NCBI RefSeq assembly: GCF_000426365.1
Contig: NZ_AUFF01000012.1
Span: 1 to 63,900 of the forward strand
Origin: Arenimonas composti TR7-09 = DSM 18010
GTDB lineage: Bacteria > Pseudomonadota > Gammaproteobacteria > Xanthomonadales > Xanthomonadaceae
Direction of reading: 5' to 3'
Length of the DNA stretch: 63,900 nucleotides
Shown here: in pieces, positions 37,379 to 55,713 of the stretch
Position numbering within the stretch: the stretch's first letter is position 1
Layout of the letters: the number at the start of each line of letters is the position of its first letter
The notes under the pieces: generated by a model
Told to the model about the DNA's origin: nothing
What the model saw: only the letters and a program-made list of their open reading frames with translations
Databases searched by the model: none
Translations under genes and position numbers: made by a program

Positions 37379-37453
37379 AAAACCGGGGTCGGAGTACATT
37401 CCCGGCGGCCGGGGTCGGAGTAAATTGCCCGGGAATGTACTCCGACCCCGGTT
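37379..37453. repeat. Triple family A repeat between divergent genes
   Basis: Two direct copies (37379-37405, 37407-37432) and one inverted copy (37428-37453) of CCGGGGTCGGAGTAC fill the whole gap between the cupin and the persulfide dioxygenase genes. Any promoter for either gene must lie in or across the repeats. Confidence 0.85.
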
Positions 37454-37461
37454 CTGCGCCC

Positions 37462-38322
37462 ATGACGCCACTGGTACACAGCTTCCACGACCCGGCGACT
37501 TTCACCTTCACCCACGTGGTCTACGACCGGATCTGCGGCCGCGCGGCGGTGGTCGACCCGGTGCTGGATTTCGATGTCGCGTCCGGGCGCACCTCGACCG
37601 CCTCGGCCGAGCAGGTGCTGGCCTTCCTCGGCGAACACCGGCTGAGCCTGGACTGGGTGCTGGAGACGCATGCCCACGCCGACCACCTCAGCGCCGCCGC
37701 CTTCCTGAAGCGGCGTACCGGCGCGAAGGTGGCGATCGGCCGCGGCATCACCGCGGTGCAGGAACGCTTCAAGACGCTGTTCGGGCTCGAAGACGACTTC
37801 GCGACCGACGGCCGCCAGTTCGACCGGTTGTTCGACGACGGCGACACTTTCGCGATCGGCGCGCTGCGGGCGCGGGTGCTGGGCACGCCGGGGCATACCT
37901 CGGACGGCGTCAGCTACCAGGTCGGCGATGCGGTCTTCGTCGGCGACACCCTGTTCGCGCCCGAGACCGGCACCGCCCGCGCCGATTTCCCCGGCGCCGA
38001 TGCGCGCACGCTGTACACCTCGCTGCGCCGGCTGCTGGAACTGCCGCCGGAGACGCGACTGTTCCTGTGCCACGACTACCCGTCGCAGACGCACACCGTG
38101 CAGGCGATGACGACGGTGGCCGAGCAGCGCGCGCGCAACATCCACGTCGGTGGCGGCGCCGGCGAGGACGCCTACGTCGCGCTACGCACCACCCGCGATG
38201 CCGCGCTGCCGGTGCCGAAGCTGATCCTGCCGGCGCTGCAGGCGAACATCCGCGCTGGCGAACTGCCGCCCCCTGTTGCCAATGGCGTCAGGTACCTGCG
38301 GCTGCCGCTGGACCAGATTTAG
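37462..38322 (+). CDS. Blh/ETHE1-like MBL-fold persulfide dioxygenase
   Basis: 286 aa from ATG 37462, or 295 aa from the in-frame ATG at 37435 inside a family A repeat. Metallo-beta-lactamase motif HAHADHLSAA, GTPGHTSDGVSY, VGDTLFAPETGTARADFPG and LFLCHDY give the mono-iron site of ETHE1-type enzymes. The TARADFPG block resembles bacterial Blh proteins that oxidise persulfides in sulfide detoxification. No BigR-type regulator or sulfurtransferase is nearby, so its physiological role is inferred. Confidence 0.85.
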   Translation: MTPLVHSFHDPATFTFTHVVYDRICGRAAVVDPVLDFDVASGRTSTASAEQVLAFLGEHRLSLDWVLETHAHADHLSAAAFLKRRTGAKVAIGRGITAVQERFKTLFGLEDDFATDGRQFDRLFDDGDTFAIGALRARVLGTPGHTSDGVSYQVGDAVFVGDTLFAPETGTARADFPGADARTLYTSLRRLLELPPETRLFLCHDYPSQTHTVQAMTTVAEQRARNIHVGGGAGEDAYVALRTTRDAALPVPKLILPALQANIRAGELPPPVANGVRYLRLPLDQI

Positions 38323-38331
38323 CAAGTGGGG

Positions 38332-38408
38332 TTAACAACTGGGGTCGGATTCCTTCGTTAAGACGGGCGCCGCCCGTCTTAACGAAGGAATCCGACCCCG
38401 GTTGTTAA
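38332..38408. repeat. 77-nt near-perfect palindrome
   Basis: The segment is symmetric around 38370. A 29-bp perfect stem (starting GGGGTCGGATTCCTTCGTTA) extends outward through one G-T wobble by eight more pairs. It is related to family A (GGGGTCGGA) with a different body. It sits between the persulfide dioxygenase and csaA and could act as a terminator or cruciform. Confidence 0.9.
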
Positions 38409-38430
38409 GCCCAGTTGTCAAGGAGCCACC

Positions 38431-38772
38431 ATGACCAACACCATCACCTGGGACGACTTCACCCGGGTCGAACTGCGCGTCGGCCGCGTGCTCGAGGCGC
38501 GCGTTTTCCCGGATGCGCGCAAGCCCGCCTACATCCTGCACGTCGACTTCGGCCCGGAGATCGGCATGCGCAAGTCGAGCGCGCAGATCACCGACCACTA
38601 CACGCCGGAATCGCTGGTCGGGCGGCTGGTCGTCGGCGTCGTGAACTTCCCGCCGAAGCAGATCGGGCCGCTGCGCTCGGAATGCCTGGTCACCGGCTTC
38701 CACGATGCCGACGGGCACGTGTGGCTGTGCGTGCCCGACGGCGAGGTGGCGCCCGGAACGCGGCTGCTCTGA
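38431..38772 (+). CDS. csaA: CsaA-like tRNA-binding domain protein
   Basis: 113-aa single tRNA-binding (OB-fold) domain. FTRVELRVGRVLEARVFPDARKPAY, RKSSAQITDHYTPESLVG and NFPPKQIGPLRSECLVTGF match CsaA. The family binds tRNA and has been described as an export-related chaperone in Bacillus. AAGGAGCCACC before the ATG supports the start. It is probably transcribed with the downstream reductase. Confidence 0.92.
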   Translation: MTNTITWDDFTRVELRVGRVLEARVFPDARKPAYILHVDFGPEIGMRKSSAQITDHYTPESLVGRLVVGVVNFPPKQIGPLRSECLVTGFHDADGHVWLCVPDGEVAPGTRLL

Positions 38773-38833
38773 CGGCCTGCGCCATCCGACCAAGATCGAT
38801 ACCCTCGCGGAATCGCCCAACGAGGAGTTGCCC

Positions 38834-39439
38834 ATGCGCCGCCTGATCGCCTCCACCTTCGTGTCCCTCGACGGCGTGATGCAGGCCCCCGGCGGGCCCG
38901 ACGAAGACCGCGACGGCGGCTTCGCGCACGGCGGCTGGACCTTCCCGCACTGGGACGAAACGATGGATGCGGGCGCCGCCGGTTTCGACGCCGCCGGCCG
39001 CGAACTGCTGCTGGGCCGGCGCACCTACGACATCTTCGCCGGCTACTGGCCGAACCAGCCCGCCGACGACCCGACGGCGCGCACGCTCAACGCGGTACGC
39101 AAGCACGTGGCGTCGCGCACGCTGGCGTCGGTGGCCTGGAACAACGCGACGCTGCTGCGCGGCGAGCTGGTGGAGGCGGTGCGGGCGCTGAAGGCCGCCG
39201 ATGGCCCCGACCTGCAGATCATCGGCAGCGGCACGATCATCCAGCCGCTGCAGCGCGCCGGCTTGATCGACGAGTTCAACGTGTGGACGTTCCCGGTCGT
39301 GCTCGGCGGCGGCAAGCGGCTGTTCGAGCCGGGGGCGACGGCGACGGAACTGCGGCTGGTGTCGTCGGCGGTGTCGAACACCGGGGTGGTGATGAGCCGC
39401 TACGAGACCGATGGCGCCGTGCGGACGGGCTCATTCTGA
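38834..39439 (+). CDS. DHFR/RibD-C-like reductase
   Basis: 201-aa protein of the dihydrofolate-reductase-like RibD C-terminal family. Motifs: RRLIASTFVSLDGVMQAPGG, LLLGRRTYDIFAGYWP, LQIIGSGTIIQPL and FPVVLGGGKRLFEPG. It probably binds NADPH; the substrate is unknown. Many relatives are found as small stress-associated reductases. ATG 38834 follows GAGGAG; a longer reading to 38705 would overlap csaA and is unlikely. Confidence 0.88.
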   Translation: MRRLIASTFVSLDGVMQAPGGPDEDRDGGFAHGGWTFPHWDETMDAGAAGFDAAGRELLLGRRTYDIFAGYWPNQPADDPTARTLNAVRKHVASRTLASVAWNNATLLRGELVEAVRALKAADGPDLQIIGSGTIIQPLQRAGLIDEFNVWTFPVVLGGGKRLFEPGATATELRLVSSAVSNTGVVMSRYETDGAVRTGSF

Positions 39440-39441
39440 CG

Positions 39442-39527
39442 GGAATAACGGTGTCAGAGACAGTTACCGCCGACGGCCTTGGCCGACGCGACACCGCCGG
39501 AGTAACTGTCTCTGACACCGTTATTCC
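39442..39527. repeat. 25-bp perfect inverted repeat (family E)
   Basis: Arms 39442-39466 and 39503-39527 (core AACGGTGTCAGAGACAGTTA) are exact complements. The right arm contains the crcB stop codon; the left arm begins just after the reductase stop. It lies between two convergent genes. Confidence 0.9.
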
Positions 39528-39883
39528 GCGAGCCGGCTGCCGAGCCACACCGCGAACAGGCACACCCCCACGCTGCCGAGCACATACACCGCCGCCAGCG
39601 CGGCGTCGCCGCGGCGCATCAGCGTCAGCGTCTCCAGCCCGAAGGCCGAGAAGGTCGTGAATCCGCCCAGCACGCCGGTGACCACGAACAGCCGCAAGGT
39701 GTCGCCGTCGGGCGCCCGCGCCAGCACGCCGGCGACCAGGCCGATCAGCAGGCAGCCGAGCACGTTCACCGCGAAGGTCGGCCACGGGAAGCGCGCGGCG
39801 CTGCCGGCCAGCGCCAGCGACACGCCGTAGCGCGCGATCGCGCCGAGCGCGCCGCCGAGACCGACCCAGAGCCAGCCGGGCAT
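39521..39883 (-). CDS. crcB: Fluoride efflux channel CrcB
   Basis: 120-aa four-segment membrane protein of the CrcB/Fluc family. GGALGAIARYGVSL, WPTFAVNVLGCLLIGLVAG and GFTTFSAFGLETL are family signatures, with the pore-lining Asn in VNVLG. It exports fluoride as a dual-topology dimer. Its start overlaps the lipoprotein stop by one base (TGATG), so it is translated from the same mRNA. No fluoride-riboswitch motif was found upstream. The stop TAA belongs to the family E repeat. Confidence 0.93.
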   Translation of the reverse strand: MPGWLWVGLGGALGAIARYGVSLALAGSAARFPWPTFAVNVLGCLLIGLVAGVLARAPDGDTLRLFVVTGVLGGFTTFSAFGLETLTLMRRGDAALAAVYVLGSVGVCLFAVWLGSRLAE

Positions 39884-40479
39884 CAGCGCGTCTCCGGATG
39901 CACGCCGGGGATCAGCTCGCGCAGGCGGTCGTCGATCGCCACGAAGACGTTCGCGGACAGGTCGTTGCGCAGTCGGTCGTCGGCGCCGACGGCGTTGCCG
40001 CCGGCGTCGGTGGGAATCTGCACCCGGTCGCTGCTGGCGGCGGTCACCCGGAAGCCGCCGAGCAGGGCAGCGTCGGCGAGGCGGAACAGCAGCACGTCGC
40101 CGTCGAACGCGCCCGGGCTGAAGTCGCGGTCGGCGCCGACCGACGGCGCCAGCTCGCGATGCACGCGCAGCACGAACACGTACTCGGCACGCGCGCATTC
40201 GCCCATGATCAGCGGCGCGCCGCGGTGCAGGGTGCCCGCGTCGGCCGGCAGGTACTCCGCGCAGCTCTGCACGGTCCGCGCGTGCGTCGTGCCGAAGCCG
40301 TCGCTGCGCACCGGCGCGGCGGCGCGCACCGCCGGTTCCAGCGCGGCGATGCGCTCGAACACCTGCTGCACCTGCGGGCGCAGTTCCGCGACCTGATCGG
40401 CGACCGTTTCGCCGCAGCCGGCGAGCACCAGCGCCGACGCGAGCACCGTCGCCAGCACCGGGGAAAGGATCCTGGCCAT
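39883..40479 (-). CDS. Lipoprotein of unknown function upstream of crcB
   Basis: 198 aa, with lipobox LVLAGC and start supported by GGAGG. The mature protein contains a short coiled coil (VADQVAELRPQVQQVFERIAAL) and an alpha/beta domain with no recognised family. It is translationally coupled to crcB. A family A repeat upstream holds an in-frame ATG (MYSDPGF) at 40530 that could add 17 residues ahead of the signal peptide; the SD favours 40479. Confidence 0.75.
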   Translation of the reverse strand: MARILSPVLATVLASALVLAGCGETVADQVAELRPQVQQVFERIAALEPAVRAAAPVRSDGFGTTHARTVQSCAEYLPADAGTLHRGAPLIMGECARAEYVFVLRVHRELAPSVGADRDFSPGAFDGDVLLFRLADAALLGGFRVTAASSDRVQIPTDAGGNAVGADDRLRNDLSANVFVAIDDRLRELIPGVHPETR

Positions 40480-40510
40480 CGACACCTCCACGCACAGAAA
40501 CCGCGGTCGG

Positions 40511-40582
40511 AAACCGGGGTCGGAGTACATTCCGGGGGCCGTTACTCCGGGTCACGGCAGCGCAAATGTACTCCGACCCCGG
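40511..40582. repeat. Family A inverted repeat pair
   Basis: AAACCGGGGTCGGAGTACAT at 40511-40530 and its complement at 40564-40582 are separated by about 30 bp. The right arm holds the ATG that opens the VOC-like gene. Confidence 0.85.
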
Positions 40583-40916
40583 CTTGCTCACCGTTGACGT
40601 CGAGATCCTCGGCACGCGCTTCATCCTGCTGCGCGGCGGCCCGCAGTTCCGCTTCAGCGAGGCGGTCAGCTTCCAGGTCGCCACCGACGACCAGGCCGAA
40701 ACCGACCGCATCTGGCATGCGCTCGTCGACGCCGGCGGCGAAGAATCGATGTGCGGCTGGTGCAAGGACCGCTACGGCCTGTCCTGGCAGATCACCCCGA
40801 AGCGCCTGATCGAGTTCACCACCGCCGGCGGCGAGACGGCCGCGAAGGCCTTCGCCGCGATGATGACGATGCGGAAGATCGACATCGCGGCGCTGGAGCA
40901 GGCGGTCGTGGCCTAG
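40566..40916 (+). CDS. 5'-truncated VOC (PhnB-like) gene with repeat-borne start codon
   Basis: 116 aa. The product begins MYSDPG, encoded by a family A repeat, and continues directly into the second half of a PhnB-type VOC domain (RFILLRGGPQFRFSEAVSFQV, CGWCKDRYGLSWQITPKRL, MTMRKIDIAALEQ). Normal family members have about 50 residues more at the N-terminus. The repeat appears to have replaced or cut off the 5' end of the gene. It is a close relative of the C-terminal part of 30032-30634. No ribosome-binding site is evident, so expression is uncertain; it may be a pseudogene. Confidence 0.65.
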   Translation: MYSDPGLLTVDVEILGTRFILLRGGPQFRFSEAVSFQVATDDQAETDRIWHALVDAGGEESMCGWCKDRYGLSWQITPKRLIEFTTAGGETAAKAFAAMMTMRKIDIAALEQAVVA

Positions 40917-40944
40917 TTCGTAGTTCGTACGAGGTACGAGATAG
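40914..40944. repeat. Family C repeat
   Basis: CTAGTTCGTAGTTCGTACGA followed by GGTACGAGATAG, beginning at the stop codon of the truncated VOC gene. Confidence 0.8.
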
Positions 40945-41025
40945 TGTAGGAGCGGCTTCAGCCGCGATCCCTTGCTTCCCTCCCGACCTGCAGGAAGGGC
41001 ATCGCGGCTGAAGCCGCTCCCACAG
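40945..41025. repeat. Family B REP doublet (REPIN)
   Basis: GTAGGAGCGGCTTCAGCCGC near 40946-40965 and its inverted partner at 41001-41025 are separated by about 35 bp. It abuts the family C repeat and lies 10 bp from the end of the alpha/beta hydrolase gene. Confidence 0.85.
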
Positions 41026-41035
41026 GGGCGACTGA

Positions 41036-42406
41036 TTACTCGTCGGAAAGCGTCGCCCCGCGCATCCACTCGGTCATCAGTTCCAGCGCGGACCGCGAGA
41101 AGGTCTCCTCGATCGCGAAGTACTCCGCCGGCGAGCCGGTGTTCGCGGTCTGGAAGTTGTGGTTCAGGCCGGGCAGCTCGCGCACCTCGGCGCGCGGATT
41201 GCCGGCGAGTACGCGCCGCAGCTCCGCCAGGTTCTCGGCCGGCGGCACCTGCAGGTCCTTGCTGCCGATCAGCGCCAGCACCGGCACCTTCACTTCGCGC
41301 AGGTAGGCGCGCGGGTCGAGTGCGAGGAAGCGGCGGTACCACGGCGACAGCATCCACTCGAAGGCCTCGTCCGGCAGCCCGTCGGCGGGCAGTTCCAGCG
41401 TCGTGCGCACGTCCTCGGGCAACGCGGCGGTGGCCGCGTGCATCGCCGCGAGCGCGGCATCGTGGTCGAGCGGGCCGGCGGCGATCTCCAGCAGCTCGCG
41501 CTCCTGGTCGCGGTTCATCGCGATCAGCGCCTCGTCCATGCCCTCGGCGCGGCGCAGCGCGGCATCCTGCAGGCTCTTGTTGTCGATACCGGGCAGGCCG
41601 GTGCCGCCGAGCAACACGATGAAGGCGACGTCTTCCGGCGCGTCCGCCGCGACCATCGCCGCGATGATGCCGCCCTCGCTGTGACCGGCGAGGCCGACCC
41701 GGCCGCCGTCGACGAACGGCTGCATCCGCAGGAACCGCACCGCTGCCAGCGCGTCACTGGCGTAGTCGTCGGTGGTCGAGCCGGGGTGTACCTCGCCGCC
41801 GGTGAGACCGACGCCGCGCGTGTGCGGGCCGGTGCCGGCGACCAGCACCACCGCCGGGAACGGGCCGGGGCCCATCGGATACGTCAGCGTGCCGACCGGG
41901 GCGACGCCCGGCGTCGGGGTCGCGAACACCACTTCCTGTTCGCGGTAGGGCAGCGCGACCACCGGGTGCTGCGGACGCAGGCGCACGGCGTAGGCGTGCA
42001 GCTTGCCGTCGCCGTCCTGTTCGAGCGCGAAGCGGTTCACGTTGCCGCTGCGGCCGGTGATCGTGAAGAAACGGGTGCCACCGCTTGGCGGCGCCTCCAC
42101 CGCGAAGTCCGCCGCGGCGCCCATCGCCACGAAGCGTGCCTGTACCGCGGCGAGGTCGTCGGCCGAGAACATGTAGCGCTTGATCGCGTTCGCCGGCCAG
42201 GCGGTGAGGGGCGCGGCGGCCGGCGAGGCAGCGGCTGCGGAGGCGACGGCCACGTGGTCGGCGGAAGCGGCGGCATCGGCCGCGACCGCGGCCGCCGATG
42301 CGGCGAGCCCCAGGGCGATCGCCAGCCCGAGCGCCAGCCCGCGCGAGCGCGACGCGCGCGCGCCGGGCGCCGTGCTGCCGAAGTCGTCGAAAGCGGAAAC
42401 GTTCAT
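41036..42406 (-). CDS. Exported alpha/beta hydrolase
   Basis: 456-aa secreted or periplasmic hydrolase, start supported by GGAGGA. After a long Ala-rich signal (LALGLAIALGLAASAAAVAAD) comes a small N-terminal domain (about 65-135; VQARFVAMGAAADFAV). The hydrolase core then shows PAVVLVAGTGPHTRG, nucleophile elbow GLAGHSEGGIIAAM, Asp in LIGSKDLQVP and His in PGLNHNFQTA. The triad is complete. Substrate unknown; the family includes peptidases and esterases such as YtaP-type dienelactone hydrolase-like enzymes. Confidence 0.87.
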   Translation of the reverse strand: MNVSAFDDFGSTAPGARASRSRGLALGLAIALGLAASAAAVAADAAASADHVAVASAAAASPAAAPLTAWPANAIKRYMFSADDLAAVQARFVAMGAAADFAVEAPPSGGTRFFTITGRSGNVNRFALEQDGDGKLHAYAVRLRPQHPVVALPYREQEVVFATPTPGVAPVGTLTYPMGPGPFPAVVLVAGTGPHTRGVGLTGGEVHPGSTTDDYASDALAAVRFLRMQPFVDGGRVGLAGHSEGGIIAAMVAADAPEDVAFIVLLGGTGLPGIDNKSLQDAALRRAEGMDEALIAMNRDQERELLEIAAGPLDHDAALAAMHAATAALPEDVRTTLELPADGLPDEAFEWMLSPWYRRFLALDPRAYLREVKVPVLALIGSKDLQVPPAENLAELRRVLAGNPRAEVRELPGLNHNFQTANTGSPAEYFAIEETFSRSALELMTEWMRGATLSDE

Positions 42407-42499
42407 GGGTCCTCCGAGGCGCGTGGGGTCCCGGTGAGGCTAGGCAGCGCCGGCAGCCGCGCCCAGTGCTTTTCGTCCGTCCCCGGATTCCGGCGTCGC

Positions 42500-42536
42500 G
42501 ACTACGAACCACCTCTTACGGACTACGAACTACGTC
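42500..42536. repeat. Family C repeat (diverged)
   Basis: GACTACGAACCACCTCTTAC followed by GGACTACGAACTACG immediately precedes the promoter of the Cys-rich gene. Confidence 0.65.
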
Positions 42537-42595
42537 TTGACCTTGCCACGGTGTCAGCCCCGAGCCTCACGCCACGGCATTCCGCCGTCCAGGAG
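42537..42595 (+). promoter_or_regulatory. Candidate MerR/CueR-type promoter and RBS
   Basis: TTGACC (42537-42542) and GAGCCT (42562-42567) are separated by 19 bp, the spacing typical of MerR-family promoters. The spacer begins TTGCCACGGTG, like the left half of metal-responsive operators; the right half (TCAGCCCC) is degenerate. AGGAG at 42591 is the ribosome-binding site for the GTG start at 42602. CueR is encoded 5 kb away (47062). Confidence 0.4.
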
Positions 42596-42601
42596 AACCC
42601 C

Positions 42602-42721
42602 GTGAGCACGATCGAAGACACCGCCACCACGCCCTGCCCCTGCTGCGCCTGTGGCGACTGCACCTGCGGCGACTGCCGCTGCTGCGACTGCGCCCCGTGC
42701 GGCTGCGGCGGCGACGAGTGA
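42602..42721 (+). CDS. Cysteine-rich 39-residue protein, metallothionein-like
   Basis: A tiny GTG-started gene preceded by AGGAG. The product has 12 Cys in 39 residues, arranged as CPCCACGDCTCGDC and on to the end with CxC and CxxC spacing, plus acidic residues. No known metallothionein family can be assigned from sequence, but the composition implies soft-metal binding (Cu, Zn or Cd). The stop overlaps the GTG of the DUF3703 gene (GTGA), so the two are translationally coupled. The promoter resembles a metal-responsive MerR-type site. Confidence 0.6.
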   Translation: MSTIEDTATTPCPCCACGDCTCGDCRCCDCAPCGCGGDE

Positions 42722-43056
42722 GCCTGCGCATGCCGTCCGCGCGCCGCGCCGCGTTCGCCGCCGAGTGGCAGGCGGCGGCGGACGCGCGGGCGGCCGGCGA
42801 CCTGGCGCGCGCGTTCCGGCATCTGGAACGCGCGCACATCATCGGCCAGCGCTGGACGATTCCGCACGTGCGCAGCCACCTCGGGATGCTGGCGATCGGC
42901 TGGTCGCGCCGCGATCGCCGCGAGGTCCTCGGCCAACTCGCGCGCATCGTCGCCGCGGCGCTGTTCTCGCGGGTGTGGGTGCCGGAAGGCAACACCGGCG
43001 GCGCCGACGTGCCGGCGATGCGGAGGATGGAGGTGCCGCGGGATCTGAGGCTCTGA
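42718..43056 (+). CDS. DUF3703 family protein
   Basis: 112 aa from GTG 42718, or 108 aa from ATG 42730. It matches DUF3703: FAAEWQAAADARAAGDLARAFRHLERAHIIGQRW, HVRSHLGMLAIGWSRRDRREV and WVPEGNTGGADV. The family is uncharacterised but is often found near metal-resistance genes, which suits its coupling with the Cys-rich miniprotein. His and Arg residues in HLERAH and HVRSH are strictly patterned and may bind a ligand. A deleted duplicate lies at 30645-30760. Confidence 0.85.
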   Translation: MSLRMPSARRAAFAAEWQAAADARAAGDLARAFRHLERAHIIGQRWTIPHVRSHLGMLAIGWSRRDRREVLGQLARIVAAALFSRVWVPEGNTGGADVPAMRRMEVPRDLRL

Positions 43057-43057
43057 C

Positions 43058-44899
43058 TCACTCGCCCAGCGCGGCGTAGTGGTACAGGGCGTAGCGGTAA
43101 GGCAGGGCCGCGCGCACCGCCTGCGACACCGGTTCGTGCAGGGCCGGATCCCAGGTCGTCCACGTCCTGATGAAGGCTTCGGCGCGCTGGCGGTCGCCGG
43201 CGGCCTGCACTTCGAGCACCTCGCGCAGCAGCGATTCCACCGCCGCCGGGTACTTCGCGTAATCGATGCGCATGTGCTGGGTCGCCGGGTCGAAGGCGAG
43301 CACGCCGCGGTCGAGGAACCAGTTCCACTGCATCAGCTGCATCGTCTGGTAGGGCTGGTCGCGGCGCGGCTTGTTCCGCTGCAGCACGCGCAGGATGCCG
43401 GAGGCATAGACCGCGCGCGCATCGTCCGCGCTGTAATAGCCGTCGGCCTGCAGGCGCGGGATCGCATGCAGCGACACCAGGTCCGCCTTCATCTCCTCGA
43501 GCAGGTCGGCGGCGTCCTGCAGCGAATCGCCGAGCACGCGGCCGTCGCGACTGCGGTCGACGCCGAGGTAGTGGCCGATCTCGTGCCACAGCGTGCGCTG
43601 CACCGAACCTTCGGGCTGCAGGTCATCGGCATGCGCCGGATCGATCGCCGCCGCCCAGGTCGCCGCCGCGATGTCCTGCACTTCCGGGTGCCTCATGATG
43701 TTGTCGCGCATCAGGATCGTGCGGCCGTAGCGCGCCGCGTGCAGCGGATCGTTCGGCAGGATGCTGGCGGTGTTGCCGCCGCGCGACTGGCCGAAGTCGG
43801 CGACGACGTCGTAGACGCCGACCGGGATCTTCGCGCGCACCTCGCGTTCGTAGTCGACCGGCAGCGCATCGTGGATCGTCTGCAGGCCGCCGAGGGCGCC
43901 GGCCACCGCATCGGATTCGGCGTCGCGGCGGACCAGGATCGACATCGACCACGAGGCACGCACGCCGAGCAGCTCGTCGTCGTAGGTCTCGTAGGCGCCG
44001 ATCTGGGCGTTGAGGTGGCGGAAGCGCGCGGTGACCCAGATCGCGTCGCCGGCTTCGTAATCGTCGGCGAGCAGGTCGCGGGCGCGGGCGCGCAGGTAGC
44101 CGGCGAATTCGCGGTCGTCGGCCTGCACCGCCTCGGCGGCGCGCATCAGGTGGTCATGGATCGCCATCGTCTCCGCCGGCCAGGCCAGCGAATACGGCAG
44201 GCCGTAGAGGCTGCCGCGGCCGCCATCGCGCGCGGAAGCCGCCGCCGCGCGCAGGGCCTCGAGACGCGTGCGCAGGCCCGGGTGCAGCACGTCGAGCGCC
44301 GGATACTTCGCCAGCGTCGCCAGGTCGGTGTCGAGCTGGGCAGCGGTCGCGCGACGGATCACCGTGCGCTCGCCGAGCAGTTCGTCGCGGCGCTGCGGAT
44401 TCGCGGCGATGAAGGCGTCGAGTTCGGCGCGGCCGAGGTCGGCCGGGTAGAAACCTTTCGCCGGGGTGTTCGCCGGCACGTCGACGAAGCGCATCCGGGT
44501 GTTGTCGAGCGTCGTCGCCACCGGACCCTTGAACAGGCGGTAGAGGGTTTCGGCCTGCTCGCGCCCGGGGCCCGCCGGCAACGCCGCGATCCGCGCCCGT
44601 GCGGCGGCGGCATGCGGGTGCACCTGCAGCTCGTAGAGCTGCTGCACGATCTCGCCGGCGGCGAGCAGGTGCGGCAGCGCCGCCTGCTCCCCCGGGCCCA
44701 GCGTCGCCAGGTCGGGCGCCAGCCGCAGCATGCGCGTCTGCGCCAGGATCGCCTCGCGCTGGTCGGCGTCGAGCGGTCCGGACGGCGCCGCGGCGGCGTG
44801 GTCGTGGGCGACGGCGACGACGGTGCTGGCAGTGAAGGCCGGAACGGCGAGCAGCAGTGCGACGGCGAGCGCACGCAGGCGCGGGGTGCGGATGGTCAT
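43058..44899 (-). CDS. Secreted M49 (dipeptidyl peptidase III-like) metallopeptidase
   Basis: 613-aa exported protein (signal RALAVALLLAVPAFTASTVVA). Zinc motif LWHEIGHYLGV (HExxH, near residue 440) with a downstream acidic helix EEMKADLVSLHA that supplies the third ligand, the arrangement of M49/DPP-III-like enzymes. The N-terminal half holds FKGPVATTLDNTRMRFVDVPANTPAKGFYP, typical of the family. It probably processes peptides in the periplasm. The gene is divergent from nothing; it follows the phytochrome operon on the same strand by 41 nt. Confidence 0.82.
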   Translation of the reverse strand: MTIRTPRLRALAVALLLAVPAFTASTVVAVAHDHAAAAPSGPLDADQREAILAQTRMLRLAPDLATLGPGEQAALPHLLAAGEIVQQLYELQVHPHAAAARARIAALPAGPGREQAETLYRLFKGPVATTLDNTRMRFVDVPANTPAKGFYPADLGRAELDAFIAANPQRRDELLGERTVIRRATAAQLDTDLATLAKYPALDVLHPGLRTRLEALRAAAASARDGGRGSLYGLPYSLAWPAETMAIHDHLMRAAEAVQADDREFAGYLRARARDLLADDYEAGDAIWVTARFRHLNAQIGAYETYDDELLGVRASWSMSILVRRDAESDAVAGALGGLQTIHDALPVDYEREVRAKIPVGVYDVVADFGQSRGGNTASILPNDPLHAARYGRTILMRDNIMRHPEVQDIAAATWAAAIDPAHADDLQPEGSVQRTLWHEIGHYLGVDRSRDGRVLGDSLQDAADLLEEMKADLVSLHAIPRLQADGYYSADDARAVYASGILRVLQRNKPRRDQPYQTMQLMQWNWFLDRGVLAFDPATQHMRIDYAKYPAAVESLLREVLEVQAAGDRQRAEAFIRTWTTWDPALHEPVSQAVRAALPYRYALYHYAALGE

Positions 44900-48114: not shown

Positions 48115-48131
48115 CGCCGCAGTGTACCCGT

Positions 48132-48148: not shown

Positions 48149-48227
48149 GCGAAGGCATAGCCGCCATCACGTGATTTGCATCGCCGCTGCGTAGGCTGCG
48201 CGCCGGACCGAACGGCAGGAGGCGGCG

Positions 48228-48470: not shown

Positions 48471-48491
48471 GGCGTGCCGCCTGCCTGAAGT

Positions 48492-48531
48492 GTGCCGCGC
48501 ACCGTTAATCCGGGTTAACGGTGCGTGGCAC
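48492..48531. repeat. Family E inverted repeat
   Basis: GTGCCGCGCACCGTTAA (48492-48508) and TTAACGGTGCGTGGCAC (48515-48531) pair with one mismatch between two convergent genes; a likely bidirectional transcript-end hairpin. Confidence 0.75.
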
Positions 48532-48548
48532 GGTTAAGCCGTCGATCT

Positions 48549-48935
48549 TCAGCCGCAGCGCACGCGCAGCACGCGGTCGTCGCCGTCGACGTCGATGTTC
48601 ACCCGATCCTCGCGGTAATCCATCGTCGCCATCATTCCCGGCTTCAGCACGCGCACGCCTTCGCTGCCGGTCGCGACGCGGATGCGTTCGATCAGGTTGG
48701 TATCCAGCAACAGGCCGACGGCCCAGGCCGCCGGGCCGGAATCGCAGACCGACGGGGTGGCGGGGGCGGGTTCGGGTTTGTCTTCGGCGCGGGGCATCGG
48801 CGTCGGCTCCGGTTCGGGGACGGGGGCGGGGGCGGGGGCGGAATCGGCGGGCGGCGGCTCGGCCGGGCCCGAGGCACAGGCGCCGAGGCTCATTGCGGTG
48901 GCGAGCAGCAGCAGGGGCAGGCGCAGCGGGGTCAT
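48549..48935 (-). CDS. I78-family peptidase inhibitor lipoprotein
   Basis: 128-aa lipoprotein (lipobox SLGAC). After a Pro/Glu-rich linker, the C-terminal 65 residues match peptidase inhibitor I78: LDTNLIERIRVATGSEGVRVLKPG, TMDYREDRVNIDVD and terminal VRCG, with the disulfide Cys pair (VCDSG, VRCG). It probably guards the envelope against serine proteases. Confidence 0.87.
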   Translation of the reverse strand: MTPLRLPLLLLATAMSLGACASGPAEPPPADSAPAPAPVPEPEPTPMPRAEDKPEPAPATPSVCDSGPAAWAVGLLLDTNLIERIRVATGSEGVRVLKPGMMATMDYREDRVNIDVDGDDRVLRVRCG

Positions 48936-49101
48936 CGTGAAGGCTCCGGAAGTCGGGTTGGTAGGCAGCCTAACCCGGCGCCCGTGAGCCCCGGCTAATC
49001 ATCCGGCGTTCCACCACGACAACGATGGATTGCCGGCGGCGCAGCTTGTTGCAGAAGCGCCCAGGGGCCAAGACTGGTCCACCCTCCCCGGAGCCCCGTC
49101 C

Positions 49102-50175
<1,074 letters not shown>

Positions 50176-50196
50176 GCGGGGGAATCGGGGACGCGT

Positions 50197-50296
50197 CCTC
50201 GGGGACGTACCCCTTCGGTCCGAAGCTACGGTGTCAGCCGTCGGGCGTCCTGTCATGGAGGACGGGGTACGTCCCCGAGGACGGGGTACGTCCCCT
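50197..50296. repeat. Family D-like inverted repeat (GGGGACGTACCCC)
   Basis: CCTCGGGGACGTACCCC at 50197-50213 and its exact complement at 50264-50280 flank the end of the hypothetical gene on the minus strand; a third partial copy follows at 50283-50296. Confidence 0.8.
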
Positions 50297-50683
50297 ACCC
50301 CCGTCCCCTACCCCGACGCAGTGCAGGGGCAGGGCGAAGCCGTCGGCGTGCAGCAGGGCCACCGAGGTCTCCCGGTCGAGCAGCACGGCCACGTCCGCCG
50401 GCCGCGGCGCGTCTTCGGGCGCGGTCGAGAATGGCAGTCCGCGGGCGCTGACGGTGAGGTAGCGGTCGTCGCCGTCGGCGCGGCCGCGGCCGTCCCAGCA
50501 GCCGGTGTAGGCGCAGACGCTGATCGCGCCGTCGTCGGCGAAGGCCACGCTAAGCGGGGTGGATTCGCCTTCGCCGGCCACCGCGCAGCTGCCGCCGCCG
50601 CAGCGGATCTCGAGGTCGTTGCGGCAGTGCCAGGACTCGACCGCGAACGCCGGCATCGCCATGCCGGCCATCAGCGCGGCCAT
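50234..50683 (-). CDS. Exported hypothetical protein with Cys-rich beta domain
   Basis: 149 aa from ATG 50683. A short Ala/Met signal (MAALMAGMAMPAFA) is followed by SWHCRNDLEIRCGGGSC, CAYTGCW and a small beta-rich domain. Six Cys suggest disulfides. An upstream start could lengthen the signal, but none of the ATG codons there is in frame, so the true N-terminus is unclear. The C-terminus (RGRTPSSGTYPVLHDRTPDG) is read from the family D-like repeat block and is probably recent. Confidence 0.5.
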   Translation of the reverse strand: MAALMAGMAMPAFAVESWHCRNDLEIRCGGGSCAVAGEGESTPLSVAFADDGAISVCAYTGCWDGRGRADGDDRYLTVSARGLPFSTAPEDAPRPADVAVLLDRETSVALLHADGFALPLHCVGVGDGGRGRTPSSGTYPVLHDRTPDG

Positions 50684-50900
50684 CAGCGCGGCGAACCGCG
50701 CGGCGAACCGCGCGGCCCGGGTACGGGCAAACGTCGCGCCGCCACCGGGCAGACATGCGCCGCGGCACCGACGCCCCCGGCTCTGCGGATCCGCATGCGA
50801 ACGCCTCCTCTTCGATCCCCACCCGACTCCAGCCCGCGCCGCCCCCGGCGCGACGATCGGCCCATACGGTCCGCGACCCCCGCATGCGAAACTCACCGCC

Positions 50901-52277
50901 ATGACCCGATTCCTCCGCGCGCTGGCCGCCGTGCTGGCGCTGGGCGTGCTTTCGGGGTGCGCGACCACGCCCGCGCGTCCCGACCTCGCCCGCCTCTACG
51001 AAGCCGACGTCGCGAACACCCGGCAGCCGCCGGTGATCCTGATCCACGGCCTGATGGGCTCGACCCTCGTCGAGCGCGATACCGGCCGCGAATTCTGGCC
51101 GGGCTCGCTCGGCGCGCTCGCCTTCAGCGATTATCGCGACCTCGCACGCATGAAGGAAGCCGAGGCCCGCGGCGGCGGCCTCGTGCCCGGCGACCTGTTC
51201 TACGGCATCGGCCTGGCACGGGTGGACTACTACCGGGCGCTCGTGGACACGCTCGAGAAGGCCGGCCGCTTCCGCCGCGCCGAACCCGGGCAGCCGGTGC
51301 AGGGCGATGCCGACCGCCGTCGCTACTACGTGTTGCTGTACGACTGGCGCAAGGAGAACCTGGATGCGGTGCGCCGCCTGCACGCCCTGATCGACGCGAT
51401 CCGCCACGACTACGGCGACCCCGACCTGCCGGTCGACATCATCGCGCACAGCAACGGCGGCCTGATCGCCAACTACTACCTGCGCTACGGCCCGAACGAC
51501 GTGCTGTCGAGCGGCGACTTCAGCAACTGGGACGAAGGCGCCCACCGCGTCCGTCGCGTCGTCATGCTCGGCTCGCCCAGCCTCGGCGCGGTGACCAGCC
51601 TCGAGCGCCTGCAGCGTGGGGTCGCCGTCGGCCTGCGCACGGTGCCGGTCGAGGTGCTGGTGACCTTCGCGACCCCGTTCGAGACCCTGCCGCACCCGCA
51701 GGCGCAGGTGGTGTTCTCGCGCGCGGGCAAGCCGCTCGCGTTCGACTTCTGGTCGGCCGACACCTGGCGCCTGCGCCGCTGGGGCGTGTTCTCGCCGGAG
51801 GTCGAGGCGCGCGTGCTCGCGCAGGCCCCCGACCGCGAGACCGGCGAACTGCGCATGGCCGAGCTGCAGGCGCATTTCGTGCGCAACCTCGAGCGCGCAC
51901 GCCGGTTCCAGGAAGCGATCAATGCGCCGGTGCGCGGCAACGGCGTCGAGGTCGCGGTGTTCGGCGGCGACTGCGCGCCGACGCCGGGACGCGCGGTGCT
52001 CGACATCGGCCCCGACGGCCGCGAGCGCCTGGTGATCCGCCCGAACGAAGTGCACTCCCGGATCGACGGCGTCGACTACGAACGCCTGCTGCTGCTCCCG
52101 GGCGACGGCCTGGTGACCCGCGACTCGATGCTCGGCCGCGACCTGCCGGAAGTGTTCGGGCGCCCGTCCGGCGTTTTTCCGATCGCCCAGAGCCTGTTCC
52201 TCTGCGAACAGCACGACCAGCTGACGGTCAACCCGTGGTTCCAGAACAATCTGCTGAACTTCCTGCTCGCCCGCTGA
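50901..52277 (+). CDS. LCAT-like lipase/acyltransferase lipoprotein
   Basis: 458-aa lipoprotein (lipobox LSGC) of the lecithin:cholesterol acyltransferase/lipase fold. VILIHGLMGSTLV, YDWRKENLDAVRRLHALID, nucleophile elbow IIAHSNGGLIANYY and LPGDGLVTRDSML are visible, with a His near NPWF likely completing the triad. It probably hydrolyses or transfers acyl chains of phospholipids at the envelope. The next gene starts 19 nt downstream on the same strand. Confidence 0.85.
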   Translation: MTRFLRALAAVLALGVLSGCATTPARPDLARLYEADVANTRQPPVILIHGLMGSTLVERDTGREFWPGSLGALAFSDYRDLARMKEAEARGGGLVPGDLFYGIGLARVDYYRALVDTLEKAGRFRRAEPGQPVQGDADRRRYYVLLYDWRKENLDAVRRLHALIDAIRHDYGDPDLPVDIIAHSNGGLIANYYLRYGPNDVLSSGDFSNWDEGAHRVRRVVMLGSPSLGAVTSLERLQRGVAVGLRTVPVEVLVTFATPFETLPHPQAQVVFSRAGKPLAFDFWSADTWRLRRWGVFSPEVEARVLAQAPDRETGELRMAELQAHFVRNLERARRFQEAINAPVRGNGVEVAVFGGDCAPTPGRAVLDIGPDGRERLVIRPNEVHSRIDGVDYERLLLLPGDGLVTRDSMLGRDLPEVFGRPSGVFPIAQSLFLCEQHDQLTVNPWFQNNLLNFLLAR

Positions 52278-52296
52278 GGGCTCCGGAGCCGATTGC

Positions 52297-53340
52297 ATGA
52301 CCCGACGCCTCGCCACGCTGCTCGCCTCCGTGGCGATGCCCCTCGTTCTCGCCGCCACCGCCGCCACCGCCAGCGCCGCCGCTGCCGCCGCACGCGCCGC
52401 CACCGCCGAGCCGGACCCGCCGCCGGTCGAACTGCCCGAGGTCGTCGTCGGCGTGCAGCCCGGCCCGGGCCTCTGGACGGTCGAGGCGGCGAACGGCAAC
52501 CGCATGCTGGTGCTGGCACGGGTGTCGCCGCTGCCGGCGCGGATGGCGTGGAATTCGCTGGCGATCGAACGCCGCATCGCCGAGTCCGGCGTGGTGCTGC
52601 TGCCGCCGCGCGCCGAGGTCAGCGCTGGCGACGCCTGGTTCGGCGGCGTCTTCCTGATCCCGCGGGCGATGCGCGCACGCAACAACCCCGACGGCCGGAG
52701 CCTGCAGGACGTGCTGCCGGCCGCCGACTACGCACGCTGGCAGCGGCTGAAGGCGCAGTGGATCGGCCGCGACCGCGGCATCGAGAAGCGGCGGCCGATC
52801 GTCGCCGGCAGCGAACTGCAGCAGCGCGCGATCGAACGCAGCGGCCTGTCCTACGACGACATCGTCGGCAAGGTCGTCGACCGCGCCGCGCGCCGCCACC
52901 GGGTGCCGGTGCAGCGCTCGACGATCGCGGCGGTGATCCCCGAAGCCAAAAAACTGCTCCGCGAGTTCCAGCAGACGCCGCTGGGCGACGTCGACTGCTT
53001 CCGGCGCATGCTCGACCAGGTCGAGAACGACCTCGGCACATTCGCCGCGCGCGCCAATGCGTGGGCGATCGGCGACATGGCCACCCTGCAGTCGCTGACC
53101 TGGACGCAGACCGGCGAAGCCTGCGGCGCGCTCTTCACCTCCGGCGCCCTGGCCGAACGCGCCGGTCTCGCCGACCTGCCGCAGCGCATCGAGGCCACCT
53201 GGCTCGCCGACGCCGAGAAGGCCCTGCGCGAGCACCCGCAATCCTTCGCGGTGGTGGCGATGGCCGAGGCGGTCGATGCCGACGGCTGGCTGGCCCAGCT
53301 GGCCGCCCGCGGCTACCGGGTGATCCCGCCCGCTCGCTAG
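52297..53340 (+). CDS. TraB/GumN-family protein (divergent)
   Basis: 347 aa with a signal sequence (LASVAMPLVLAATAATASA). The core resembles TraB/GumN: GNRMLVLARVSPLPARMAWNS, then helices with VVLLPP and the end VVAMAEAVDADGWLAQLAARGYRV. The usual His and Glu motifs are weakly kept, so enzymatic function is doubtful. It is co-directional and close to the LCAT-like gene and to the following coiled-coil gene (10 nt). Confidence 0.7.
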   Translation: MTRRLATLLASVAMPLVLAATAATASAAAAAARAATAEPDPPPVELPEVVVGVQPGPGLWTVEAANGNRMLVLARVSPLPARMAWNSLAIERRIAESGVVLLPPRAEVSAGDAWFGGVFLIPRAMRARNNPDGRSLQDVLPAADYARWQRLKAQWIGRDRGIEKRRPIVAGSELQQRAIERSGLSYDDIVGKVVDRAARRHRVPVQRSTIAAVIPEAKKLLREFQQTPLGDVDCFRRMLDQVENDLGTFAARANAWAIGDMATLQSLTWTQTGEACGALFTSGALAERAGLADLPQRIEATWLADAEKALREHPQSFAVVAMAEAVDADGWLAQLAARGYRVIPPAR

Positions 53341-53349
53341 AATCGCCGC

Positions 53350-54141
53350 ATGAAGGATCTCCGCAACCTGCTGATCGACTGCCGTATCGAGCTGCGCAAG
53401 GCGATGCGCGATTTCCAGAAGTCGGAAATCTGCGAGCGCCTCGACCTCGCGATCCAGGCGGTCGCGAATGCGCAGGATCCGCAGGACGTCGAGCTCGAGC
53501 CGCCGGCCGAGGGCGTCGCCCACCTCGGCGACAAGGTGCAGACCGTCAGCCAGGTCGCACTGGCCTGGCAGACCGCCGCGCGCGACCTGAAGTTCAGCGA
53601 TCCGGCGATCCACGCCCGCCTCAGCGACAAGGTGATGCGCCTGCTCGGTGCGAAGACCCTGGTCGACCCGAGCACCGAGATCGTCCAGCTCGAGCAGCAG
53701 GTCGCCCAGCTGCGCGCCCAGTTCGAGGCGCAGGCGAAGCTGCAGCAGCAGCTCGAAACCGAACGGGACGCGATCCTCGGCGCGCTGGCTTCCGCGGTGC
53801 CGGCACTGAAGGACGGCGGCGACCGCCTCGGCGTCGCACTCGCGCGCCTCGAATGGCTGAAGGCCGAGGCCGCGCGGGGCGGCACCGGCGGTGGTGGTAG
53901 CGCTGGCGGCGGCGGTTCGGCTTCGGCGCCGCGCCAGGCGCCGGCGGATCCGATGCCGTCGCCCGAACACCTCGCCGCGGTCGCCACCCGCGCGGCGGCG
54001 CTCACGAAGGAACAGCGCGAGTGGTGCGTCGGCGAGGCGATGGTGCTCAGCGGTTTCCGCTACACGCCGGTCGAACTGATCGAGCAGGGCGACGCGGCGA
54101 TCGCGCAGCTGATCCTCGACGCGCGCAAGGCCGCGGGCTGA
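53350..54141 (+). CDS. Coiled-coil protein of unknown function
   Basis: 263 aa, soluble. It has helical segments with a coiled coil (IVQLEQQVAQLRAQFEAQAKLQQQLETE, about 117-145), a Gly/Ser linker (GGTGGGGSAGGGGSAS) and a C-terminal helical domain (EQREWCVGEAMVLSGFRYTPVELIEQGD). No known domain is evident. It starts 10 nt after the TraB-like stop, suggesting an operon with the LCAT-like gene. Confidence 0.65.
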   Translation: MKDLRNLLIDCRIELRKAMRDFQKSEICERLDLAIQAVANAQDPQDVELEPPAEGVAHLGDKVQTVSQVALAWQTAARDLKFSDPAIHARLSDKVMRLLGAKTLVDPSTEIVQLEQQVAQLRAQFEAQAKLQQQLETERDAILGALASAVPALKDGGDRLGVALARLEWLKAEAARGGTGGGGSAGGGGSASAPRQAPADPMPSPEHLAAVATRAAALTKEQREWCVGEAMVLSGFRYTPVELIEQGDAAIAQLILDARKAAG

Positions 54142-54259
54142 CCGCGAAAAAATTTCCCGCCGGGCCCGCGTCCCTCACGCGCCGTCCAACCCGGCCTTCG
54201 CATCGTGGCGTCCCCGCTGCCGTCGTGGCGCGGGTTACCCCACGAACGAGGACACCCAA

Positions 54260-54721
54260 ATGAAGGACGTCAAGAAGGATCACAGCATCGGTGCAGGCAC
54301 GGGTGCGGTCGGCGGCGCGCTGGCTGGCGCGGCGGTCGGTGCCGCGGCCGGTCCGGTCGGCAGCCTGGTCGGCGCCGCGGTCGGTGGTGTGGTCGGTGCG
54401 AAGGCCGGCGACTCGATCGCCGAGGCGGTCAACCCGACCGAGTACACCGAGCACTGGCGCAACAACTACGCGTCGACCCCGTACTACCGCGCGGACGCCA
54501 CCTGGGACGACTACGAGCCGGCCTACCGCTACGGCTACGACACCTACGGCCAGTACCGCGGCAAGTCGTTCGAGTCGGTCGAGAGCGATCTCGAGCGCGG
54601 CTGGGACAAGACCAAGGCGAACTCGCGCCTGGGCTGGAACGAAGCCAAGGGCGCCGTGCGCGACGGCTGGCACCACATCGAGCGCGCCCTGCCGGGCGAC
54701 TTCGACGGCGACGGCCGCTGA
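54260..54721 (+). CDS. Glycine-zipper protein
   Basis: 153 aa. Residues 10-55 form a glycine zipper (GAGTGAVGGALAGAAVGAAAG) able to insert in or span a membrane. The rest is acidic and Tyr-rich (YEPAYRYGYDTYGQYRGKSF) and then helical (DLERGWDKTKANSRLGWNEAK), like hydrophilin or stress-desiccation proteins. GAGGACACCC upstream supports the start. Function unknown, possibly envelope or osmotic stress related. A terminator hairpin follows. Confidence 0.8.
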   Translation: MKDVKKDHSIGAGTGAVGGALAGAAVGAAAGPVGSLVGAAVGGVVGAKAGDSIAEAVNPTEYTEHWRNNYASTPYYRADATWDDYEPAYRYGYDTYGQYRGKSFESVESDLERGWDKTKANSRLGWNEAKGAVRDGWHHIERALPGDFDGDGR

Positions 54722-54723
54722 AC

Positions 54724-54761
54724 CGGGACGTACCCCGTTAAGCGGGACGTACACCGTTAAG
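54724..54761. repeat. Two direct family D repeats
   Basis: CGGGACGTACCCCGTTAA at 54724-54741 and CGGGACGTACACCGTTAA at 54743-54760, directly after the glycine-zipper stop. Confidence 0.8.
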
Positions 54762-54767
54762 CAGACG

Positions 54768-54815
54768 ACGGTGTCGGGGACGGGAAGGATCCCGTCCCCG
54801 GCACCGTTTTCTTTT
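54768..54815 (+). terminator. Rho-independent terminator built from a family E palindrome
   Basis: An 18-bp stem (ACGGTGTCGGGGACGGGA and complement, one wobble pair) with an AGGA loop is followed by TTTTCTTTT, ending the glycine-zipper transcript. Confidence 0.8.
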
Positions 54816-54820
54816 GCGGT

Positions 54821-55174
54821 TCAGGCCTTGCAGGACCAGCGGAAACCCGGCGTGGTCAGCGTGTACTGGCCGGGGCGGTCGTCCATCGGCACGAACTCGC
54901 CGCCGTCGAGGTAGCCACCGCGCAGGGTGACCGCGCCGTTCGCGCCGGCTTCGATGCGGCCCTCGCTCGGATTCTCGAAGCCGCGGTAGACGTAGCCACC
55001 GCCGCTGAACTCGACATAGCCGCGCGGCTGGAACTGGTACATGCCGCTGCCGCTGTCGTAGACCGATTGCGTGCAGCCGAAGCGGCCCTGCGGACCGGCG
55101 CCGGCAGCGGCGCTGCCCTGGCTGCAGGCGGCGAGGATCGGTAGGAAAACGGCGAGGGCGAAGCGTCGGTTCAT
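54821..55174 (-). CDS. Lipoprotein of unknown function
   Basis: 117-aa lipoprotein (lipobox LAAC). The mature part is beta-rich: FGCTQSVYDSGSGMYQFQPRG, GGGYVYRGF and QYTLTTPGFRWSCKA, with two Cys likely forming a disulfide. No named family. ATG 55174 is preceded by AGGGATGG. Confidence 0.7.
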   Translation of the reverse strand: MNRRFALAVFLPILAACSQGSAAAGAGPQGRFGCTQSVYDSGSGMYQFQPRGYVEFSGGGYVYRGFENPSEGRIEAGANGAVTLRGGYLDGGEFVPMDDRPGQYTLTTPGFRWSCKA

Positions 55175-55193
55175 TGGCCATCCCTGGGTGAGA

Positions 55194-55265
55194 AACGGTG
55201 TCGGGCACCGGGGCGTAACGGTGTCGGGCACCGTTAAGCAAAATTAACCGTGCGCGGCACTGTTA
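55194..55265. repeat. Cluster of family E palindromes
   Basis: AACGGTGTCGGGCACCG (55194-55210), TAACGGTGTCGGGCACCGTT (from 55216) and TTAACCGTGCGCGGCACTG (from 55244) lie between the lipoprotein gene and tRNA-Arg. Confidence 0.8.
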
Positions 55266-55276
55266 CGGAAGGGGGA

Positions 55277-55353
55277 TGGCGCGCCCGGAGGGATTCGAAC
55301 CCCCGACCAATGGCTTCGGAAGCCACTACTCTATCCGGCTGAGCTACGGGCGC
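55277..55353 (-). tRNA. tRNA-Arg (CCG)
   Basis: 77-nt cloverleaf on the minus strand. The acceptor stem is GCGCCCG/CGGGCGC, discriminator G and an encoded CCA end. The anticodon loop TTCCGAA gives anticodon CCG, which reads CGG arginine codons. The T-loop GTTCGAATC is present. It stands alone next to the small membrane protein gene. Confidence 0.95.
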
Positions 55354-55410
55354 TTTGGGAACCGCGGAAACGGCGGGGCCGGATCCGGGCCGGGGAGTAT
55401 ACCCGCAACC

Positions 55411-55644
55411 TCAGCGCCGGTAACGGGCCGCGTCGATGCAGGAAAGGATCGACACGAGCAGCCAGCCGAAGCCGCCGAACAGCCCGAGCGAGAACAGGAA
55501 CACGACCGCTCCGACGACACAGGCCAGCAGGAACCAGAACAGCGCCGACAGCACCCGCCCCTGCACCAGCTGGCCGAGGCCGGGCACGAACAGGCTGCAG
55601 ATCGCGGCGATCACATTGCCGGTGGAACCCTGTGCTGCGGACAT
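55411..55644 (-). CDS. Small two-segment membrane protein
   Basis: 77 aa from ATG 55644, chosen because GCAAGGAG lies six bases upstream. [20 protein letters not shown] resembles the start of TM2/DUF5683-type small membrane proteins, followed by a long hydrophobic stretch. Function unknown. Confidence 0.7.
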
Positions 55645-55658
55645 GCCCATCTCCTTGC

Positions 55659-55713
55659 AAAAACCGGGGTCGGAGTAACATTCCCGGAAATGTATTCCGA
55701 CCCCGGTTTTTCA
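55659..55713. repeat. Family A inverted repeat pair at the ubiA start
   Basis: AAACCGGGGTCGGAGTAACA (from 55662) and its near complement 55688-55712 are separated by a few bases. The right arm carries the ubiA start codon. Confidence 0.85.

Follow-up and report, generated by a model that had tools for sequence, protein, structure and literature searches.

A stop-free palindromic repeat expanded in Arenimonas composti lies in frame at gene edges and within genes and seems to supply the start of ubiA

The 63,900-nucleotide (nt) stretch of DNA analysed here, referred to as the window, is contig C11 of the 3.16-Mb, 29-contig assembly of Arenimonas composti TR7-09. It carries copies of a short palindromic repeat, termed family A, next to or within genes that include ubiA, comF and those encoding an AFG1-like ATPase, a persulfide dioxygenase, a cupin, a lipoprotein and a VOC-like protein. 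Family A resembles the repetitive extragenic palindromic (REP) and terminal inverted repeat (TIR) elements, with the arm AAAACCGGGGTCGGAGTAC[A/T]TTTCC occurring mostly as inverted pairs. The arms are approximately 22 nt and the doublets approximately 45–125 nt in length; the outer edge of the arm is AAAACC, the GTAG foot is absent and the hairpin forms between the two arms. Four doublets folded as RNA gave energies of -39 to -70 kcal/mol and z scores of -4.9 to -6.6. The repeat had been described as a family in a first-pass annotation of the window, and this was borne out by a search with CCGGGGTCGGAGTACAT at up to 3 mismatches, which gave 12 matches in the window compared to 0.18 expected from shuffles, and by the 24 exact copies of the core 15-mer CCGGGGTCGGAGTAC that are present genome-wide.

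Read outward, the arm is ATG or AAG followed by TAC TCC GAC CCC GG, with the ATG forming the loop-side edge of the arm. The first codon of 37 mapped arms is ATG in 17, AAG in 18 (in the window at 4827, 4912 and 57224), TTG in one and ACG in one. Variants that do not match this 37-arm pattern include the arms at 55664 and 37410. By hand count an inverted partner lies close to 25 of the 37 arms, as in a repeated family that often forms inverted dimers. All six frames of the consensus arm are free of stop codons, while the typed consensus arms of three other repeat families (B, C and D) each contain a stop in at least one frame.

The genome-wide sample consisted of 24 stretches around family A copies and transposase genes, giving 381,523 bases including the window, in which genes were called by codon usage. 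This sample covers all exact and one-mismatch sites of CCGGGGTCGGAGTAC. Allowing up to 2 mismatches the 15-mer has 68 sites genome-wide compared to 10 for the reversed pattern, and the 13 sites outside the sampled stretches all have two mismatches and are mostly chance-like. The 14-mer GGGGTCGGAGTACA is present in 13 copies in this genome and once each in 10 of 394 other genomes of the taxonomic family, where approximately 10 would be expected by our estimate of chance and the reversed control gave 3 matches. A longer degenerate pattern gave 33 copies here and a maximum of 4 in any other of 298 genomes, among which no relative rich in family A was found, and a scan of named genomes with an exact 21-mer, possibly excluding the organism's own or very near records, gave no match. 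Because the copy counts are high here and near chance elsewhere, family A is expanded in this genome, and a widespread distribution was rejected on the same counts of the 14-mer and the degenerate pattern.

The repeat copy at the ubiquinone gene ubiA reads ATGTATTCC, and the doublet that contains it folds into a hairpin of -39.1 kcal/mol (z -5.5). The distance from the start of the divergent neighbour, which is taken here to be a TM2-like gene, to codon 13 of ubiA is 84 nt and consists mostly of repeat, compared to 126–273 nt in 19 relatives with a TM2-like neighbour. An inverted repeat of at least 18 nt within the 150 nt upstream of ubiA was found in one of 30 loci, that of A. composti itself, and in none of the 29 relatives. 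The N-termini of the relatives' UbiA proteins differ, and their in-frame ATG lies 15–63 nt upstream of codon 13. In 24 of the 29 a TANNNT motif is placed at -11 to -16 of this ATG (22 at -12 or -13), mostly as TGnTAnnnT, with five lacking the motif; the arrangement looks like a leaderless promoter. By comparison with these relatives both the native ATG and the promoter-like motif are gone from A. composti. The ATG of the repeat now seems to be the start of ubiA, with the native start signal replaced, which supports the first-pass annotation on this gene. The TAACAT just upstream of the repeat ATG would then produce an mRNA with little or no leader and stand in for the leaderless promoter and ATG of the relatives. 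Leaderless-looking genes exist in this genome: among the 201 genes preceded by a gap of at least 60 nt, with starts chosen by our gene caller, TANNNT was counted 12 times at -12, three times at -13, three times at -14 (ubiA among them), once at -15 and twice at -16, and not at all from -11 to -6 or from -22 to -17.

Native start sequence has also been displaced at two other gene edges. At a gene that is presumably trpC, ATG (17 of the 18 relatives shown) or GTG (one) precedes AGC-GAC, and the sequence in A. composti is CCCGTGGATATC. The native ATGAGC has been replaced and a GTG remains, with a repeat ATG in frame 48 nt before this GTG and GAGG at -7 of the repeat ATG, making it plausible that the native trpC start was lost and that the ATG of the repeat takes over. 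At the end of the AFG1-like gene the TGA stop codon overlaps the next start in 12 relatives, five as ATGA and seven as GTGA (one with the next start uncertain); here a doublet separates the two, and neither frame has been closed. The protein after AFG1 begins MPKEKYSDPGFW, its start being the ATG of the loop rather than that of the arm, and 12 relatives align to it from residue 11–14. Loss of the native start and use of the loop ATG is plausible for this gene. As a separate observation, trpC of one relative (G004, L217) is preceded by a different palindrome that ends 2 nt before the native ATG; by eye, its inner ATG opens the peptide MHSDPGYS, with a stop codon overlapping the trpC start.

Further copies lie within genes. 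HrpA, named through solved structures, contains two in-frame insertions in A. composti, in linkers that are short in the solved HrpA 9ggr. HrpA gave 26 matches in 25 genomes, and 14 sequences, including that of A. composti, were examined at a total of 28 loops, all 28 of which lie within one open frame. Inverted repeats with arms of at least 20 nt, unmatched by 60 mononucleotide shuffles each, are present in 15 of the loops and 9 of the sequences, while a sixteenth loop with a 14-nt arm is chance-like. In HrpA of the 13 relatives (L271–L283) palindromes of differing families stand in frame at the two loops, and the family varies by species (GGGGTCAGGTTCAC, GTACCAGGTTCAT, GGGGTCAGATCCC and others). 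The GACCCC of the outward arm is in phase 0 in these loops, and GGGGTC is in phase 1 in all but one sequence. The variable loop of ComF, which holds a solo arm in A. composti, was compared in eight relatives, one of which (G023) has the peptide GSEPDPGS at the loop; its DNA contains neither GGGGTC nor GACCCC, so that a repeat origin of this insert was not established.

Since arms are found in HrpA, in ComF and at the C-terminus of AFG1, the common factor is an open frame and not a start codon. Family A is likely to be a REP/TIR-type element whose open-frame copies persist at gene edges and in loops, some of them replacing native starts. It would belong to the class of elements mobilised by REP-associated tyrosine (HUH) transposases, with copies landing at a gene edge or permissive loop, some local sequence being lost, and the copy then being read through, which is possible because the consensus arm lacks a stop in all six frames. 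Selection would remove the copies that break a frame, leaving a surplus of in-frame copies in which the outward arm is mostly read as xYSDPGF. Where the native start had been removed the start of the element would be used, that of the arm at ubiA and probably trpC, and that of the loop after AFG1. The first-pass annotation had proposed that supplying a start codon and a short leader peptide (MYSDPG) lets the element survive. The lost native starts support this at ubiA, and plausibly at trpC, but as a general mechanism it is improbable, given that 18 of the 37 arms begin with AAG, 7 of the 17 ATG arms face the 3' end of a gene, four native starts were probably kept, the VOC-like gene is truncated, and internal and C-terminal copies occur. 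The features of the window on which these readings are based are collected in Table 1.

Table 1. Family A elements and adjoining genes in the window
Feature	Position	Strand	Description
Gene downstream of AFG1	3472..4839	-	N-terminus MPKEKYSDPGF from loop and arm
Family A doublet, AAG arms	4808..4931	.	Junction of AFG1 stop and next-gene start
AFG1-like ATPase	4857..6035	-	New C-terminus VRKPGSEYFSAPDHDAGEGASGGNVA, partly repeat-coded
Solo ATG arm	11943..11963	+	Out of frame, 163 nt before next called start
Cupin	37043..37360	-	From probable native ATG, residue 14 of long reading; repeat ATG 37399 adds 13 residues in frame
Three-arm family A element	37380..37454	.	Between cupin (-) and persulfide dioxygenase (+); hairpin -60.7 kcal/mol, z -6.6
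Persulfide dioxygenase	37462..38322	+	From probable native ATG; repeat ATG 37435 adds MYSDPGSAP in frame
Lipoprotein	39883..40479	-	Native ATG, GGAGG upstream; signal peptide by eye; repeat ATG 40530 in frame, probably unused
Family A doublet	40511..40585	.	Between lipoprotein gene (-) and VOC-like remnant (+)
VOC-like (3-dmu-9_3-mt) remnant	40566..40916	+	Lacks profile positions 1-45; first codons from repeat
Family A doublet	55660..55713	.	Between TM2-like gene (-) and ubiA (+); fills most of gap
-10-like TAACAT in left arm	55676..55681	+	8 nt before ATG 55690; function inferred
ubiA	55690..56577	+	ATG of repeat is likely start; Pfam UbiA from residue 34
Solo family A arm (KYSDPGF)	57205..57224	-	In frame, variable loop of ComF zinc ribbon

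The native start was probably retained at the genes for the persulfide dioxygenase, the cupin, the lipoprotein and a protein assumed here to be NtrC-like. The 80 loci compared for the persulfide dioxygenase align from residue 1–17, and an ATG is present at residue 10 in both Lysobacter loci, Lysobacter lacus and L. segetis, which are the nearest of the 80 with 70 and 73% identity respectively. No Shine-Dalgarno-like motif precedes the native ATG of this gene, and the ATG of the repeat has TAAATT at -14, so that either start may be used. Four of five cupin relatives align from residue 10–14, the fifth being partial, and 13 relatives of the NtrC-like protein with loci align from residue 9–15, with an ATG at residue 13; for both proteins some alignments extend a few residues upstream of the downstream ATG. 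No Pfam family matched the lipoprotein. The alternative starts proposed earlier for the persulfide dioxygenase, cupin and lipoprotein are in frame, with native starts that appear to be kept downstream.

An alternative explanation is that the elements are neutral intergenic bystanders upstream of native starts, the in-frame ATGs reflecting chance and weak selection against out-of-frame upstream ATGs. The GGAGG before the native lipoprotein ATG fits this explanation, as do four close out-of-frame arms (C2:47001, C2:356909, C2:370954 and C3:512304), all of which lack ATG; the latter also agree with the prediction that selection acts against a misplaced start. The parts of one study of REPs that were compared (PMC3733652) warn that many N-terminal REPs may be artefacts of mis-annotated starts. 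As an account of the family, however, the bystander explanation is unlikely, as ubiA and the gene after AFG1 have kept no native ATG, the copies inside HrpA and ComF are necessarily translated if the proteins are made, and the 55664 variant retains an out-of-frame ATG.

The repeat ATG at 40566 had been read as the apparent real start of the VOC-like gene. Residues 7–77 match profile positions 46–116 of 116 in Pfam, and because the match begins at position 46 the gene is truncated N-terminally, and a repeat-born real start of an intact gene was rejected. Two VOC/3-dmu-9_3-mt paralogues, at 30311–30628 and 40596–40913, are 76% identical, the second being truncated. The 45 missing profile positions would be explained if copies of family A were recombination or deletion junctions flanked by decaying genes. 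The same could be said of a hydrolase-like gene at C2:356909 (L078 6110–6750), which is fused directly to an arm immediately ahead of its HG motif and lacks an in-frame start in the 160 nt upstream, the nearest in-frame ATG being 162 nt away. Decay is nevertheless very improbable as an explanation of the family, given that alignments of the UbiA, TrpC, HrpA, AFG1 and NtrC-like proteins otherwise cover almost the full length in open frames.

Ten of the 17 ATG arms face the start of a gene on the same strand. Seven of these are in frame (37399, 37435, 40530, 40566, 55690, C2:216549 and C5:149102), including all five start-proximal copies named in the first-pass annotation, and three are out of frame (11943 at 163 nt, C2:96333 at 85 nt and C3:512294 at 260 nt). 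The earlier positions were correct apart from that of the solo copy, which lies at 11943 and not 11941, and the sequence of the ubiA copy, which was given above. The solo copy had been described as the only one out of frame; it is out of frame, but so by eye is the ATG of the 55664 variant (ATGTTACTCC), the left arm at ubiA, relative to the TM2-like gene 37 nt further on. With this variant added 7 of 11 start-facing ATG arms are in frame (binomial P = 0.039 against one third). At 60 nt or less, a cut chosen post hoc, the proportion is 7 of 8 (P = 0.0026), which would also favour the start-codon explanation. Four of the seven in-frame cases belong to two doublets, which limits their independence. 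Non-ATG arms are in frame in 3 of 7 cases within 60 nt and 4 of 11 overall, the 11 leaving out two gene-internal arms (57224 and C2:378581) that are both in frame.

Possible sources of transposase activity were found in five Y1_Tnp matches in the genome, all above the Pfam cut-off. The gene at C3:459612 has copies of family B (TTAACAACCGGGGTCGGATTCC), which is closely related to family A, on either side, three others are flanked by unrelated repeats and C3:198029 has no flanking repeat that could be seen. Four of the five transposases were scored by the NCBIfam model NF047646 (cut-off 80), one at 110.8 and three at 67.9–74.5. Family A is probably mobile; the enzyme of family B may act on it, or another that has been lost or is missing from the assembly. 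In the window, a near-perfect family B palindrome lies at 38323–38417 between the persulfide dioxygenase and a tRNA_bind (CsaA-like) gene. Two further repeat families were noted in the window, CGGTGCCCGGCACCGTTAAGC at 12816–12893, 48492–48539 and 55192–55268, with copies overlapping in places, and one around TAGTTCGTAGTTCGTACGAGGTACGAGGTAG at 3428, 14909, 20176, 20727, 21919 and 40911, with several inverted pairs.

A number of observations weigh against the proposal that family A persists in open frames and replaces starts. No family A copy was found within 450 nt on either side of any of the five Y1_Tnp genes, although in a 29-contig assembly absence is no proof. The frame excess expected by the first-pass annotation is present relative to one third, but ATG and non-ATG arms do not differ significantly (7 of 8 against 3 of 7, Fisher P = 0.10; 7 of 11 against 4 of 11, P = 0.20), so the frame bias is modest. 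For four of the seven ATG arms that are in frame a native start probably exists further downstream, and the out-of-frame ATG of the 55664 arm, 37 nt before a gene, is tolerated and is a counter-example to selection against such copies. The hydrolase-like gene at C2:356909, joined to its arm in another frame, may be truncated. At ubiA a strict sigma-70 consensus scan found no promoter, the -10-like box is at -14 rather than the usual -12, and in the predicted fold of an mRNA spanning the whole doublet the AUG is paired within a very stable hairpin, so that use of this start favours initiation inside the element.

Family A was compared with several known repeats. In the parts of Di Nocera et al. 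(2013, PMC3733652) that were compared, the TIR repeats of TIRtrons and TIRYTs are inverted, share GGGGWSAS, flank RAYT-like transposase genes and spread as dimers, and use of their reading frames is undescribed. Family B is placed alike around its transposase, and the family A variant GGGGTCAG fits GGGGWSAS, while the most frequent core of family A, GGGGTCGG, differs from the motif by one base and no transposase gene was found flanked by family A. The same parts describe intragenic GTAG/CGTC REPs as in-frame dimers that code for 20–30 residues, sometimes twice per gene, with different REPs at approximately the same recB site in two Xanthomonas species and RNA helicases among the targets. Family A is likewise in frame inside genes, and twice in HrpA, but lacks the GTAG/CGTC foot, and differs in the loss of native start and promoter seen at ubiA through relatives. 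Rickettsia palindromic elements (RPE), described in the sections of PMC10969869 consulted as palindromes of approximately 150 bp in frame in unrelated genes, share only the in-frame property and differ in size and host. The ERIC and YPAL units fused to open reading frames are, in the portions of Delihas (2007, PMC2759123) compared, small mobile repeats that give N- or C-terminal residues; they are longer than family A and unrelated, and replacement of a start or promoter is undescribed in those portions. Because the transposase-flanking test failed, family A was assigned to no single known family. Intragenic in-frame REPs are already known, and the RPE and ERIC fusions are alike in kind; A. 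composti adds comparative evidence for the loss of a start and leaderless-looking promoter at ubiA, together with the HrpA loops and the doublet that divides the AFG1 junction. In the open-access literature nothing was found on REP-type repeats that provide a leaderless promoter and a start, most subscription papers being outside the search.

A more tentative and rather doubtful extension is that doublets act as two-way gene-start cassettes, replacing the leaderless promoters and starts of a divergent pair at ubiA and possibly at the persulfide dioxygenase, with a similar family between two genes presumed to be hrpB-like and tatD-like. In a short-loop doublet the inward half of an arm would provide a -10-like box (TACATT, TAACAT or TAAATT) and the outward half an ATG approximately 8 nt on. 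The gap between the divergent hrpB-like and tatD-like genes is filled by a palindrome of the TAGGAGCGCCTTCAGGCGCGA family (L084 8579–8675, C5 at approximately 25.9 kb), each end of which gives TACAAT, 6 nt and ATG. TACAAT-N6-ATG is present at 2 of 60 edges of this family compared to 20 of 3463 background TAC sites.

For annotation, MYSDPG-type N-termini are a warning, as they can be either real or artefact. The HrpA loops of the genus offer a natural series for distinguishing repeated insertion from conversion of one old insertion. If the proposed reading of family A is true, the 5' end of a core metabolic gene now consists of a selfish repeat that became fixed there, and the family would show how compact bacterial genomes absorb palindromes in their reading frames.

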